Assembly: GCA_003697085.1 (NCBI GenBank)
Contig: RFFU01000110.1
Span: 1 to 9,554 of the forward strand
Direction of reading: 5' to 3'
DNA length: 9,554 nucleotides
From: Candidatus Hydrogenedentota bacterium
GTDB lineage: Bacteria; UBA8481; J006
Both the position numbers and the translations under genes were made by a program. The notes below the pieces were generated by a model. It searched no databases, had not been told where the DNA came from, and was given only the letters and a program-made list of their open reading frames with translations. Shown here one piece after another: positions 273-9,042 of this stretch (positions are counted from its first letter, which is position 1; every line of letters starts with the position of its first letter).

Positions 273-1139
273 CTATTGCAGAAGCGAGAGCACGACCTGA
301 GGACCAATGTTGGCCTGTGACAGAGCCGAGATACCGGTCTGCTGCAGAATCTGGTCCTTGGTGAACTTCACGATCTCCTCCGCGAAGTCCGCATCGCGGA
401 TCCGGGACTCGGCCGCCGTGATGTTTTCGTTGCTGATCCCGACGAAGTCGATGACGTTCTCCAGTCGATTCTGAATTGCGCCAAGATCGCCGCGCTGGCG
501 CGACACGGTATCGATCGCGTTCTGGATCATCGTGATCGCGCTTTCCGCTCCTTTTTGGGTAATGAATCCCCCTTGGGTCGCGGAAGAGGGGTTGGTGACG
601 TTAAATCCGTCGATTTTCAACCCACTCGTGGAAACGGAGGCAATATGAACAGCGATTTTTTCGCCCTTGTTCGCGCCGATCTGGAAGACCAACGAGGACT
701 GTCCCGTCGCAAACGTTCCGGTCAGAAGAACTCGGCCGTTGAAGTTCGTGGCCGAGGCTTGACGATCGATTTCCGAAAGGAGTTGATTCACCTCGGTCTG
801 AATTACCCGCCGGTCCGCCGTCGTGTTCGTGTCGTTGGCCGCTTGGACCGCAAGCGTTCGGAGCCGCTGGAGCATCGTCGAGATCTGCGCCAGACCTCCC
901 TCGGCGACCTGAATCAAGGAAACGCCGTCCTGGGCGTTCCTCTTGGCCTGCGACAAGCCGTTGACCTGCGTCCGCATCCGCTCGGAAATACCGAATCCCG
1001 CCGCGTCATCCGCCGCGCGGTTGATCCGCAATCCCGAAGACAGTCGTTCAATGGATTTGTTGAGACGGTTGGTCGTCTCGGTCAAGAGCCGCTGGGAAAA
1101 CGCGGCCGTGATGTTCGTTCGAATCCTCAAACCTGACAT
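273..1139 (-). CDS. Flagellin, 288 aa (second flagellin, downstream of flaG)
   Basis: This is a flagellar filament subunit, exported by the flagellar type III apparatus and assembled outside the cell. The N-terminal D0/D1 region has the family signature LSSGLRINRAADDAAG at residues 33-48 and continues through LQRLRTLAVQAAND near 90. The C-terminal D1/D0 region has AIQNRLENVIDF near 211 and ends in SQANIGPQVVLSLLQ. Only about 50-60 residues of variable sequence lie between them, so the protein is compact, with no large D2/D3 domains. The ATG at 1139 (MSGLRIRTN) is chosen because AAGGAGG at 1149-1155 sits 9 nt upstream; the in-frame GTG at 1148 abuts the Shine-Dalgarno and is too close. It follows flaG after 108 nt and ends at a strong terminator. 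It is clearly a paralogue of the 306-aa flagellin here, with the same end domains but a different middle. Which fliC/hag/flaA-type name applies cannot be told. Confidence 0.97.
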   Translation of the reverse strand: MSGLRIRTNITAAFSQRLLTETTNRLNKSIERLSSGLRINRAADDAAGFGISERMRTQVNGLSQAKRNAQDGVSLIQVAEGGLAQISTMLQRLRTLAVQAANDTNTTADRRVIQTEVNQLLSEIDRQASATNFNGRVLLTGTFATGQSSLVFQIGANKGEKIAVHIASVSTSGLKIDGFNVTNPSSATQGGFITQKGAESAITMIQNAIDTVSRQRGDLGAIQNRLENVIDFVGISNENITAAESRIRDADFAEEIVKFTKDQILQQTGISALSQANIGPQVVLSLLQ

Positions 1140-1145
1140 TTCTCT

Positions 1146-1159
1146 CACCCTCCTTGGTG
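1146..1159 (-). promoter_or_regulatory. Shine-Dalgarno in a small hairpin loop; possible CsrA site (288-aa flagellin)
   Basis: On the minus strand CACC and GGTG form a 4-bp stem around the loop AAGGAG, which is the core of the ribosome-binding site. A GGA presented in a short loop, preceded by A-N, is the known CsrA recognition pattern (ANGGA). The stem is short, so this is suggestive only. It also supports the ATG at 1139 over the GTG at 1148, because that GTG is part of the stem. Confidence 0.4.
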
Positions 1160-1181: not shown

Positions 1182-1201
1182 GCGGAACCGCCGTGTTCCG
1201 C
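1182..1201 (-). other. Perfect 7-bp hairpin between flaG and flagellin
   Basis: The stem GCGGAAC pairs with GTTCCGC around the loop ACGGCG, 26 nt upstream of the flagellin Shine-Dalgarno. It has the same geometry as the hairpin at 3012-3031 ahead of the other flagellin, but its loop reads ACGGC rather than ANGGA. It could be a degenerate regulatory element, an mRNA-stabilising or processing structure, or chance. There is no T-run, so it is not a terminator. Confidence 0.4.
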
Positions 1202-2007: not shown

Positions 2008-2045
2008 AAAAAAAAAAAAGGCGGAGCCGGATCACCGGCTCCGCC
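2008..2045 (-). terminator. Rho-independent terminator of the 306-aa flagellin
   Basis: On the minus strand a perfect 11-bp stem (GGCGGAGCCGG pairing with CCGGCTCCGCC) closes a TGAT loop and runs straight into twelve T. It starts 22 nt after the flagellin stop codon. It separates this flagellin from the flaG unit, which then needs the promoter found at 1859-1886. Confidence 0.96.
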
Positions 2046-2067
2046 CGGTCGAAATGAGACCGAATTC

Positions 2068-2988
2068 TTACCGCAGCAACTGCAAGACGCTCTGCGGCGC
2101 AACGTTGGCCTGAGCCAGGGCCGAGGTTCCCGCCTGTTGGAGAATCTGATTCTTCGTGAAACTCACGATCTCCGAGGCGAAGTCGAGGTCCCGAATCCGG
2201 GATTCGGCCGCCGCCTGATTCTCCATCTGGACCTGAACGAAATCGAAGGTCCTCTCCAGTCGGTTCTGAATGGCCCCCAGTTCGGCTCGCAAACCGTTGA
2301 TCTTCGTGATGGCGTTCGAAATGAGCGTAATCGCCGACTCGGCTCCCTTTCGCGTCACGACTCCAGCCGCGCTTGCACTCGCACCTGTGGCATTGGAAAT
2401 GATCGCGCTGATCAGCGTCTGGGTCGCCGTTTGCGTTCCCTTGACCTTGATATTGTCGATCCCCAAACCGGCGGTGCTGACCGTAAAGATGTTGACCGAG
2501 ATCGTCTCGGTTTCGTTCGCGCCGACTTGGAACGAAAGCGACGTTCCTCCGACCACCGAATAGGTACCGTCGAGCAGAACTTTCGTATTGAAGTTGACCG
2601 TCGAAACCTGCCGGTCGATCTCCGACAGAATCTGGTTGAACTCCAACTGAATCAGCGCCCGGTCGTTCGTGGTGAGCGTATCGTTCGCTGCTTGCACGGC
2701 CAGAGTACGCAGTCTCTGGAGCTGATCACTGATCTGCTCAATCCCCCCTTCGGCGGTCTGGATGAGCGAGATGCCGTCCTGAATGTTCTTGCTCGCCTGC
2801 TTCAAGCCGTTGATCTGGGTTCGGAATCGTTCCGAAATCGCCAAACCGGCCGCATCATCGGCGGCCCGGTTGATCCTCAAGCCCGAGGAGAGCTTTTCGA
2901 GATTCCGTTGAATGTTTCTGTTGGTGATTCCCAGCTGTCTCTGGGAAAAGATCGCAGGAATGTTAGTATTAATCCTGAATCCAGCCAT
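2068..2988 (-). CDS. Flagellin, 306 aa (first flagellin, downstream of csrA)
   Basis: This is a flagellar filament subunit. LSSGLRINRAADDAAG lies at residues 33-48, followed by the long D1 helix with LQRLRTLAVQAANDT near 91-105 and LSEIDRQVSTVNFN near 121. The C-terminal part has GAIQNRLERTFDFV near 238-251, AAESRIRDLDF, and ends SALAQANVAPQSVLQLLR. The variable centre is short, about residues 145-205, and includes an Ala/Ser/Thr-rich stretch; no D2/D3 insertion is present. The ATG at 2988 is supported by AAGGAGG at 2995-3001 with a 6-nt spacer and by the flagellin N-terminus MAGFRINTNI. It has its own promoter (3222-3249), a long leader with probable CsrA sites and its own terminator, so it can be expressed apart from the fliW-csrA operon upstream. 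Its place next to csrA matches hag in Bacillus. Confidence 0.97.
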   Translation of the reverse strand: MAGFRINTNIPAIFSQRQLGITNRNIQRNLEKLSSGLRINRAADDAAGLAISERFRTQINGLKQASKNIQDGISLIQTAEGGIEQISDQLQRLRTLAVQAANDTLTTNDRALIQLEFNQILSEIDRQVSTVNFNTKVLLDGTYSVVGGTSLSFQVGANETETISVNIFTVSTAGLGIDNIKVKGTQTATQTLISAIISNATGASASAAGVVTRKGAESAITLISNAITKINGLRAELGAIQNRLERTFDFVQVQMENQAAAESRIRDLDFASEIVSFTKNQILQQAGTSALAQANVAPQSVLQLLR

Positions 2989-2994
2989 GGGGTT

Positions 2995-3031
2995 CCTCCT
3001 TGAAAACCTTTGCCGAACGTCCTTGTTCGGC
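2995..3031 (-). promoter_or_regulatory. Probable dual CsrA-binding region in the flagellin leader
   Basis: Two AAGGA motifs lie 23 nt apart on the minus strand. One (2997-3001) is the Shine-Dalgarno itself, AAGGAGG. The other (3020-3024) sits in the loop AAGGAC of a perfect 7-bp hairpin, stem GCCGAAC with GTTCGGC (3012-3018 and 3025-3031). CsrA dimers are known to bind ANGGA in hairpin loops and to bridge two sites, one over the Shine-Dalgarno, as in the Bacillus subtilis hag leader. csrA and fliW are encoded just upstream, so autoregulation of flagellin translation is the natural reading. Binding itself is inferred. Confidence 0.7.
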
Positions 3032-3221
3032 CGTATTCCGGAACCCTCTACCTGGAGAACTCAATCGGGAAAGGCGGTTACGATGTTATGACAACAATGA
3101 TTCCACGGTTCGCCGGACCGTTGCGCGGGACGCCTTCCTTGCTTCGCCTCCTTTCTTCTCGAAACACGACCCCTTCCCGCGTGTCTGCCGGGGGCGGTTC
3201 CGCGAAGTTTCCTTGTTCTCC

Positions 3222-3249
3222 TCATCGGCAGATATCACGCAAAACTTGA
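3222..3249 (-). promoter_or_regulatory. Sigma-28 (FliA/SigD)-type promoter of the 306-aa flagellin
   Basis: The minus strand reads CAAG, 15 nt, then GCCGATGA, with the extended -35 context AAGTTTT shared with the flaG promoter. The -10 box matches GCCGATAA at 7 of 8 positions. A start about 7 nt downstream gives a leader of about 226 nt. There is no A-tract upstream; instead a dispersed-type repeat begins 13 nt beyond the -35 box. Confidence 0.8.
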
Positions 3250-3261
3250 GGGGAAAAGGAG

Positions 3262-3360
3262 ACCACGGAACACACTGAATCCACGAAAAAGATGGAAAAC
3301 CACGGAATACGCGGAATGACACGGAAAAGGTGGAAAAACCGCGAAGCGCTCGGAATGACA
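3262..3360. repeat. Degenerate ACCACGGAA-type tandem repeat
   Basis: Two similar units of 37-38 nt begin ACCACGGAA at 3262 and 3299 and end in GATGGAAA or GGTGGAAA. A third partial unit (about 3337-3360) ends CGGAATGACA. Within each unit shorter ACGGAA-like words recur. This low-complexity family gives spurious ORFs in several frames. I find no gene here. Confidence 0.7.
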
Positions 3361-3410
3361 AGTTCGCGATTACAGCGCAGGTTGGAGAACCTATGCTCCA
3401 TCTTCGCCGT

Positions 3411-3466
3411 ATTTTGGAGCGCAGACACTCTTGTCTGCGAAGGAACGGGCCGGCGCAGCCCAAAAC
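3411..3466. repeat. MITE-like element with terminal and internal inverted repeats
   Basis: Outer ends TTTTGG (3412-3417) and CCAAAA (3460-3465) are inverted repeats. Inside is a perfect 8-bp stem, CGCAGACA with TGTCTGCG around CTCT (3420-3439), then a GGGC/GCCC stem near 3448-3461. It has the build of a short non-autonomous palindromic element. Confirmation needs further copies elsewhere in the genome; none is inside this window. Confidence 0.5.
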
Positions 3467-3471
3467 TTCAT

Positions 3472-3510
3472 TGTCATTCCGAGGAGGGCGCAGCGCGACG
3501 AGGAATCCCC
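3472..3510. repeat. TGTCATTCC...GGAATCCCC dispersed-type repeat
   Basis: The short element opens TGTCATTCCGAG and closes CGAGGAATCCCC, with ATTCC (3476-3480) inverted as GGAAT (3502-3506) and a GC-rich centre. I recognise this style of extragenic palindrome from many uncultured-bacterium genomes, but only one copy is visible here. The remaining stretch, 3511-3620, shows nothing I can name. Confidence 0.5.
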
Positions 3511-3622
3511 CCCGAGCGCCAAGCCGCGGTCGCTACGGAGAAGCCTCGGAATATCCAGAAACCCACAAACATTCCGATGATCCATAGCCTCCGCAGGGGC
3601 CGCGGGTTATCGGAGAGACATG

Positions 3623-3652
3623 TCGGGTTTCCCCGAAAAGGATCGCTTTTCG
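3623..3652 (-). other. Two overlapping hairpins after csrA; possible weak terminator
   Basis: Just past the csrA stop (minus strand), a 7-bp stem CGAAAAG/CTTTTCG surrounds CGATC (3634-3652). It overlaps a second hairpin, TCGGG/CCCGA with a GAAA loop (3623-3636). They share 3634-3636, so both cannot form fully at once. No T-run follows either, so a standard intrinsic terminator is absent. The region may still slow or process the fliW-csrA transcript. Confidence 0.35.
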
Positions 3653-3654
3653 TC

Positions 3655-3924
3655 TTAGGAATTCTGCGTATCAGGTTTTTGAGACGGCTTTTTGCCCATC
3701 GTCTTCTTCAAAATTTCCGCTCCGGCGGCGGCGTCGCCCCGCGCTTGAGCGGCCCGGAGATTCTCCCTCTGGATTTCCTCGAAGATCTCTTTTCGATGCA
3801 CGGCCACGGAACGAGGCGCCCGGATTCCCAGCTTCACCTGGTCCCCTTGCACCGCCACCACGATCACCTCGATGTCATCGCCGATCATAATCGATTCGTT
3901 GAGATGTCTGGCCAGAACCAGCAT
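3655..3924 (-). CDS. csrA: CsrA, RNA-binding translational regulator
   Basis: CsrA is a dimeric RNA-binding protein that recognises GGA motifs in mRNA leaders; next to fliW its known main target is flagellin mRNA. The conserved core is at residues 1-52: [31 protein letters not shown], then [17 protein letters not shown]. Leu4 and Arg44, the residues central to RNA contact in Escherichia coli CsrA, are present. So is Asn55, a residue linked to FliW binding in Bacillus subtilis. At 89 aa it is longer than the 61-aa enterobacterial form, with a C-terminal tail of about 30 residues rich in Ala, Lys and Gln. The ATG at 3924 overlaps the fliW stop by one base (TGATG), so translation is probably coupled and the two proteins made in fixed ratio. 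The flagellin it probably controls is next downstream. Confidence 0.97.
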
Positions 3925-4391
3925 CAGCCTTTCTCCCCGGAGTCTTCTTGCGGAACGATATAGTAACGGATGGGATGCTGCGGATCCTGAGAGATGACCT
4001 GGCGCGCCAGACGTTTTCTCGGATTTATGATCAGCGGTCCTTGAAGATTGGCTGTCATCTTCCGCGGATCCTCCGGTATGACAACGACCGCCAGAACCAC
4101 CGCCTCCTCGATCCTCTCCAACTCCACCGCCGCCAAATCGTCCGAACTGACCTTGGGAAGATAATCCGGAACGAACAACCGAGGATCGATCACGATGAAC
4201 GCCAGCCCCTCCTCGCGCACGGACTGCAGCCAGAAAAAGGGGCTCTCCCCTCCATGAGGCACCAGGGCATACTCCTCGAGGTCCGGAAACCCCAGCAGTC
4301 CATCCACGACACGAAGGATATTCCCCTCGGGTATCTCCACTTCGTCCCCCGTCTTCAGTCGGATCGTACGCTTCGTCTGGCTTTCTTCCAT
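3924..4391 (-). CDS. fliW: FliW, flagellar assembly factor and CsrA antagonist
   Basis: FliW is a cytoplasmic protein that binds either CsrA or unexported flagellin. Flagellin takes FliW away from CsrA, which then represses flagellin translation, so expression follows export. The 155-aa length is typical. Family motifs in order are [13 protein letters not shown] at 31-43, PFFWLQS at 51-57, [11 protein letters not shown] at 63-73, the hallmark [12 protein letters not shown] at 112-123 and QVIS at 131-134. The ATG at 4391 is the only ATG/GTG/TTG start that fits. No purine-rich Shine-Dalgarno precedes it in the 23 nt after flgL, unlike most genes here, so it may depend on ribosomes arriving from flgL. 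The yviE gene that lies between flgL and fliW in Bacillus is absent. Confidence 0.96.
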
Positions 4392-8673: not shown

Positions 8674-9042
8674 CTACCCTCCGCCGGTTTTTTTTGGCCT
8701 GATTCCTTGAATTGTCTTGGACAGTTCTTCTGTCAATTTTCTTGAGCAGGGACGGCAAAAACGGCCCGAAGTGATCTCCGTGCCACATTCTTCGCAACGA
8801 ATCTTCAGTGCGGGAGAATCGATACTGATTAATTTTCCCTCCCTCACGAATTGCAAAATCTTCTCCTTTTTTACGGCCGTAATTCTGGCAAGTTCATCGA
8901 GTTCCGCCATGGGATTCTCCGCAACGTACCGCCGCAACGTATCGATGATCTTCGCCTCCTCCTGCCGGCACTTAGGGCAAATATGAAAGCGTTCTCGTAC
9001 AAAGAGTTCTCCACACCTCGCGCATTTCGTCAATTCCGGCAT
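8674..9042 (-). CDS. yvyF: YvyF-type flagellar operon protein, zinc-ribbon plus HTH
   Basis: This 122-aa protein resembles the YvyF flagellar operon family found at the head of flgM-flgN-flgK clusters, proposed to be regulatory. It has two treble-clef-like cysteine sets. The N-terminal set is C7-x2-C10 and C22-x2-C25; the C-terminal set is C83-x2-C86 and C96-x2-C99. Each could hold one zinc ion. Between them, residues 30-75 look like a MerR-like helix-turn-helix (LDELARITAVKKEKILQFVREGKL). The tail is basic and Gly-rich (KKTGGG). The ATG at 9042 has AAGGAG at 9051-9056 with an 8-nt spacer, overlapping the end of the preceding gene, from which it is 5 nt away. The molecular role of this family is not established; DNA or RNA binding is an inference from the fold. 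Confidence 0.85.
   Translation of the reverse strand: MPELTKCARCGELFVRERFHICPKCRQEEAKIIDTLRRYVAENPMAELDELARITAVKKEKILQFVREGKLISIDSPALKIRCEECGTEITSGRFCRPCSRKLTEELSKTIQGIRPKKTGGG

Follow-up and report, generated by a model that had tools for sequence, protein, structure and literature searches.

A candidate CsrA operator in a flagellin leader of an uncultured Hydrogenedentota bacterium, with counterparts across bacterial phyla

Organization of the flagellin locus

The window, that is, the whole stretch of 9,554 nt analysed here from an uncultured Hydrogenedentota bacterium (contig RFFU01000110.1), carries a flagellar locus with the following main features:

273..1139, minus strand: flagellin 2, 288 aa, assigned by Pfam
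2019..2046, minus strand: intrinsic terminator after flagellin 1, with a 12-bp stem and a T run
2068..2988, minus strand: flagellin 1, 306 aa, the proposed controlled gene, with Pfam Flagellin_N and Flagellin_C
3655..3924, minus strand: csrA, 89 aa, assigned by Pfam and solved relatives
3924..4391, minus strand: fliW, 155 aa, assigned by Pfam and solved relatives

The best NCBIfam match of flagellin 1 was 'flagellin Hag', under the cut-off of that family. Upstream of this gene, Pfam analysis revealed, in order, CsrA, FliW, FlgL, FlgK and FlgN, beyond which lies a YvyF-like protein, while FlaG and the second flagellin were found downstream. A previous sequence-only reading of this DNA had named fliW and csrA as the next genes upstream of the flagellin and had placed the three within 2.4 kb; Pfam and solved relatives confirmed both identities, and the three genes span 2.3 kb (2068-4391). 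The TGA of fliW overlaps the ATG of csrA by one base (TGATG), and this csrA is the sole copy found in the genome. All the genes that a FliW-CsrA-flagellin partner switch requires, csrA, fliW and flagellin, are encoded at the locus. The YvyF-like zinc-ribbon protein (window 8674-9042) was recognized with an E value of 3e-27, below the curated cut-off, in the same position as in Bacillus flagellar loci, and no flgM was recognized between its gene and flgN.

The alignment of CsrA to 1t3o and 5dmb revealed the presence of L4, R6, V42, R44 and N55, together with a C-terminal extension. Residues 2-65 aligned with chain D of 5dmb, the CsrA of the FliW-CsrA complex, and the FliW encoded here aligned with chain A, the FliW of the same complex. 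FliW has been linked to longer CsrA forms (PMC7366521), and N55D is the form in which B. subtilis CsrA has been made to lose a FliW site (PMC6529632). According to its sequence and these alignments, the protein carries the RNA-binding residues as well as the C-terminal extension and the N55 used by FliW, all of which the partner switch requires.

Anatomy of the flagellin 1 leader

The region preceding flagellin 1 contains the following elements:

2990..2996, minus strand: GGAACCC, 3′ arm of an outer 7-bp stem, predicted only
2995..3001, minus strand: Shine-Dalgarno (SD) AAGGAGG, second CsrA-like site (BS2), from reading and predicted fold
3012..3031, minus strand: candidate upstream CsrA-site hairpin (BS1) GCCGAAC[AAGGAC]GUUCGGC, hexaloop 3024..3019, from reading, repeat search and fold
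3040..3046, minus strand: GGGUUCC, 5′ arm of the outer 7-bp stem, predicted only
3222..3249, minus strand: putative sigma-28-like promoter TCAAGTTT-N12-GCCGATGA, with two mismatches to TAAA-N16-GCCGATAA

Direct reading of the minus-strand RNA before the 306-aa flagellin gave GCCGAAC-AAGGAC-GUUCGGC-AAAGGUUUUC-AAGGAGG-AACCCC-AUG, with the ATG at 2988. The arms of the BS1 hairpin (3031-3025 and 3018-3012) are 7 nt long, 100% complementary and separated by 6 nt (inverted repeat I18 in the repeat search), and the GGA of the hexaloop lies 23 nt from the GGA of the SD. The AAGGA at the SD and the AAGGAC in the loop of a perfect 7-bp hairpin, reported by the sequence-only reading at this distance, were exact to the base.

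The 111-nt leader had a predicted fold of –41.2 kcal/mol (z = –3.8), which none of the 200 shuffles equalled. The fold of a 275-nt context was no better than shuffles (z = –0.7), with the hairpin still present in the centroid. In the predicted structure, AAGGA was unpaired twice, once in the hexaloop and once, at the SD, in a bulge of 5 nt flanked by two helices; a mini-hairpin of 3 bp, UUC[AAGGAG]GAA, was the predicted alternative for the SD site. The predicted outer stem GGGUUCC/GGAACCC would pair the end of the SD, the spacer and the UG of the AUG, and a 17-nt imperfect inverted repeat (I2 in the repeat search) underlies the fold.

Chance would produce about 0.03 such sigma-28-like matches over the 320 nt scanned; if this putative promoter is used, the leader would be about 225 nt long. 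Another match, at –62, had three mismatches and overlapped the hairpin itself; it was discarded, the match at –261 being better. Given this putative promoter upstream and the strong terminator downstream, flagellin 1 is probably a single-gene transcript.

Rarity of the hairpin and other flagellins in the genome

The background consisted of 1.6 Mb of the same genome, about half of it, searched on both strands (3.2 Mb of strand). A Watson-Crick stem of at least 7 bp around an exact ANGGAN hexaloop occurred twice in this background, corresponding to about 1e-4 per 160-nt leader. The full descriptor, in which a stem of at least 5 bp is followed by an ANGGAG SD and then by an ORF, had one match in the 1.6 Mb, in a short frame, probably a spurious one. 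It also matched three flagellin leaders, namely those of flagellin 1, of L113, in the same genome (G000:C52), and of L118, from the one relative compared within the phylum. The L113 leader carries the 7-bp hairpin CGGCGAC[ACGGAG]GUCGCCG at 45 nt before its SD site, and a sequence that matches the sigma-28 promoter perfectly, spaced as in the putative promoter of flagellin 1. On these leader features, the L113 flagellin is likely a second CsrA target. The hairpin of L118, GAUAAUGUC[AGGGAU]GACAUUGUC, differs from that of the window. Two more flagellins of the same genome, L114 and L115, were found in very long ORFs (934 and 564 codons, respectively) with large central insertions.

Within the window, the second flagellin is preceded by two hairpins:

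1146..1159, minus strand: SD of flagellin 2 in a small hairpin, CACC[AAGGAG]GGUG
1182..1201, minus strand: flagellin 2 hairpin GCGGAAC[ACGGCG]GUUCCGC, with the stem length and loop size of flagellin 1 and GGA absent from the loop

Since the loop of flagellin 2 reads ACGGCG in place of the GGA loop, CsrA control may differ between the paralogues: the two may respond differently to CsrA, with flagellin 2 possibly escaping the upstream docking.

Between csrA and flagellin 1, the plus strand carries a GGA-rich tract of the CCACGGAA type (window 3240-3365). This tract was considered as a CsrB-like decoy RNA and rejected, as it is a dispersed repeat with at least 44 matches in the genome, including itself. 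The genome also holds five copies (L177, L202, L206, L217 and L220) of the hairpin GCRGGC[ARGGAT]GCCYGC, by sequence a near-ideal CsrA ligand. None of these copies is close to an obvious gene start; they seem to form a dispersed repeat and might titrate CsrA.

Comparison of flagellin leaders across phyla

Protein matches were used to collect flagellin loci from related genomes without regard to their leaders, and start codons were set by rule, without curation. In 44 of the 101 flagellin leaders, an ANGGAN hexaloop closed by 5 bp or more was present at –100 to –22. Dinucleotide shuffles of the same leaders yielded a mean of 0.36 leaders with such a hairpin, and never more than two, while ten other hexaloop patterns were each found in 0-4 of the 101. 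As related leaders are not independent, these counts overstate the number of events, which the near-duplicate filter applied in the covariation analysis corrects partly.

For that analysis, sites were picked by the loop alone, ignoring pairing, and near-duplicates were removed, leaving 44 sites. In these, 67% of the stem cells were paired, compared to 42% in shuffles, and the covariation score was 0.594, against 0.189 in shuffled sites and at most 0.275 with slid stems. All four Watson-Crick pair types occurred at the inner stem positions, and the closing pair was mostly C-G, as is also observed in CsrA ligands obtained by in vitro selection (PMC7652899). The stems therefore covary while the ANGGA loop is held, across phyla rather than within the phylum of the window. 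An alignment of related leaders had been proposed together with the sequence-only reading as a check for stem covariation around a constant loop, and, when run on other phyla and scored against shuffles, it returned covarying stems and a preserved ANGGA.

The hairpin was found in leaders from Bacillota, Spirochaetota, Actinomycetota, Desulfobacterota, Gemmatimonadota, Planctomycetota, Zixibacteria and a Hydrogenedentes-labelled relative, and a Thermomicrobium flagellin leader presented an 8-bp upstream hairpin. The distance from the hairpin to the SD site was commonest at 21-25 nt among the flagellin leaders surveyed. CsrA has been reported to bridge sites placed 10-63 nt apart, with an optimum above 18 nt (PMC7652899), a range that includes the 23 nt of flagellin 1. 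The ligands obtained by SELEX for CsrA mostly had stems of up to 4 bp, and a highly stable stem may weaken binding (PMC7652899), which counts against the CsrA reading.

Association with csrA and fliW

Most genomes of the main set carry both csrA and fliW. Among the loci from genomes with both genes, a stem of at least 5 bp was present in 36 of 74 and absent in the other 38, which included several treponemes and KSB1. Since about half of these loci are without such a stem, the hairpin is common but not obligatory. Only four loci of the main set came from genomes without csrA/fliW, three of them without the hairpin and one with it, too few to judge an association. The hairpin was present at L055, in whose genome neither csrA nor fliW was found, perhaps through incompleteness.

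Seven plasmid-borne proteobacterial flagellin leaders (four gamma, one beta and two alpha), from Aeromonas, two Pantoea, Burkholderia, Vibrio, Sulfitobacter and Indioceanicola, served as controls, with the lack of FliW taken at the level of the lineages. The beta- and alphaproteobacterial control lineages are not known to have FliW. For Gammaproteobacteria, the absence of FliW has been reported (PMC7652899). An upstream hairpin of the ANGGAN type was absent from all seven leaders. Altogether, covarying stems, a held loop, the spacing to the SD and the absence of the hairpin in the proteobacterial controls provide good comparative support for the FliW-CsrA-flagellin interpretation, as far as sequence can tell.

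Interpretation and alternative explanations

The flagellin 1 leader is most probably a translational operator for CsrA, acting in a FliW-CsrA-flagellin feedback, and a probability of about 0.85 was assigned to this reading. Under the proposed mechanism, the AAGGA hexaloop upstream would be the docking site of a CsrA dimer, which would bridge the 23 nt to the AAGGA of the SD. The bridged CsrA would block 30S binding and would probably also stabilize the partly paired start region. FliW would take CsrA off the leader, and unexported flagellin would bind and sequester FliW, restoring repression; thus, according to this proposal, flagellin synthesis would not outpace export. By analogy with Bacillus (PMC6529632) and Campylobacter (PMC4894983), we infer CsrA binding, bridging and repression, as well as FliW antagonism and flagellin-FliW binding. 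By the same analogy, the switch probably lets this uncultured bacterium halt flagellin synthesis until export. As for the complete circuit proposed by the sequence-only reading, its three genes are indeed encoded and homologous leaders keep the ANGGA loop, whereas its completeness is something that we infer.

Three other explanations were considered. The leader might repress mainly by its own structure, through the pairing of GGGUUCC (3046-3040) with GGAACCC (2996-2990), CsrA being secondary or absent. The 111-nt fold, far more stable than its shuffles, underlain by the inverted repeat I2 and with half of the SD and the UG of the AUG paired, agrees with such a role; however, this explanation does not account for AAGGA being unpaired in both places, for the loop specificity across phyla or for the adjacent csrA-fliW pair, and we consider it unlikely. 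Slightly less credible still is that CsrA binds the leader mainly to alter mRNA stability, or that the transcript mainly titrates or localizes CsrA. There are precedents, as the C. jejuni flaA mRNA titrates CsrA (PMC4894983) and, in B. subtilis, CsrA acts through the leader site to reduce the amount of hag transcript as well (PMC6529632), but here one of the two sites sits on the SD, and this position alone leads one to expect a block of translation. Finally, it is very improbable that the hairpin arose by chance or as a dispersed repeat and has no regulatory role, since, although dispersed repeats exist in this genome, one of them about 210 nt upstream, and 5 of 13 six-bp ANGGAN hairpins share GCRGGC[ARGGAT]GCCYGC, the flagellin 1 hairpin is not among the recurring sequences, the rate per leader is 1e-4, and the same architecture with different stems is found in flagellin leaders of other phyla.

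A proposed class of flagellin leaders

The switch itself is already known elsewhere; what this analysis adds is its proposed extension, from the few cultured bacteria in which the circuit was proved, to an uncultured lineage, and the recurrence of its signature across many bacterial phyla. The proposed class is a bipartite CsrA operator of flagellin genes, composed of an ANGGAN hexaloop hairpin and an SD site about 22 nt further on. Leaders of this kind occur in the groups from Bacillota to Zixibacteria named above, in Thermomicrobiota and in this Hydrogenedentes-related group. No flagellin-leader family of Rfam matched the window or seven further leader loci, and no published survey of such leaders was found in the literature searched, mostly outside subscription journals. 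The most interesting aspect is the breadth of this signature across phyla without an Rfam family. A broader proposal, to which we give even odds, is that the leader belongs to an undescribed, phylum-spanning class of cis-regulatory RNAs, that flagellin homeostasis is the ancient and general task of CsrA-FliW, and that flagellin 2 escapes the upstream docking. Flagellar control has been suggested as the older function of CsrA-FliW (PMC4894983), a suggestion that the cross-phylum signature supports and that becomes testable by a survey of leaders against csrA/fliW presence. In addition, a covarying-stem ANGGAN hexaloop placed about 22 nt before an ANGGAG SD could serve as a signature for reading CsrA control of flagellin from genomes.

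Relationship with known systems

On sequence comparison, the RNA architecture of the flagellin 1 leader most resembles that of Campylobacter flaA, and the gene order most resembles that of Bacillus. The arrangement found here is the same as the one that we take to be the Bacillus order, YvyF-like - flgN - flgK - flgL - fliW - csrA - flagellin. The likeness to Bacillus hag put forward by the sequence-only reading thus holds for the gene order, whereas the RNA, with two structured ANGGA sites about 21-23 nt apart, is nearer to C. jejuni flaA.

In C. jejuni flaA (Dugar et al. 2016, PMC4894983), two ANGGA likewise occupy neighbouring structured sites, of which the second covers the ribosome-binding site, with a spacing of 21 nt compared to 23 nt here; FliW is also present, and the stems are backed by compensatory changes. 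In contrast, the flaA 5′ UTR has 45 nt and both of its sites are hexaloops, whereas the leader studied here is probably longer and its SD site is predicted in a bulge or in a 3-bp mini-hairpin. Moreover, fliW lies apart from csrA in Epsilonproteobacteria, while both adjoin here.

The B. subtilis hag leader (Yakhnin 2007; Mukherjee 2011; PMC6529632, PMC8523840) similarly carries BS1 (A51-A55) and BS2 (C75-G82), the latter on the SD, and fliW also overlaps csrA in that species, where the overlap couples their translation (PMC6529632). Unlike hag, flagellin 1 has a perfect 7-bp hairpin as its upstream site, its start is separated from csrA by about 670 nt that include a dispersed repeat, and it is followed by a second flagellin. 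The fliC leader of Clostridioides difficile, from Bacillota and hence another phylum, is comparable in its TGACAAGGATGT upstream site and its SD-overlapping AAGGAGG site, with BS1 and BS2 also predicted there at the RNA level (PMC8523840).

A csrA that overlaps a hag flagellin gene was found on the plasmid NZ_CP114067.1 of Bacillus halotolerans (L253), with DnaA- and DnaN-like genes close by; in this case, the csrA-hag pair has been transferred to a plasmid.
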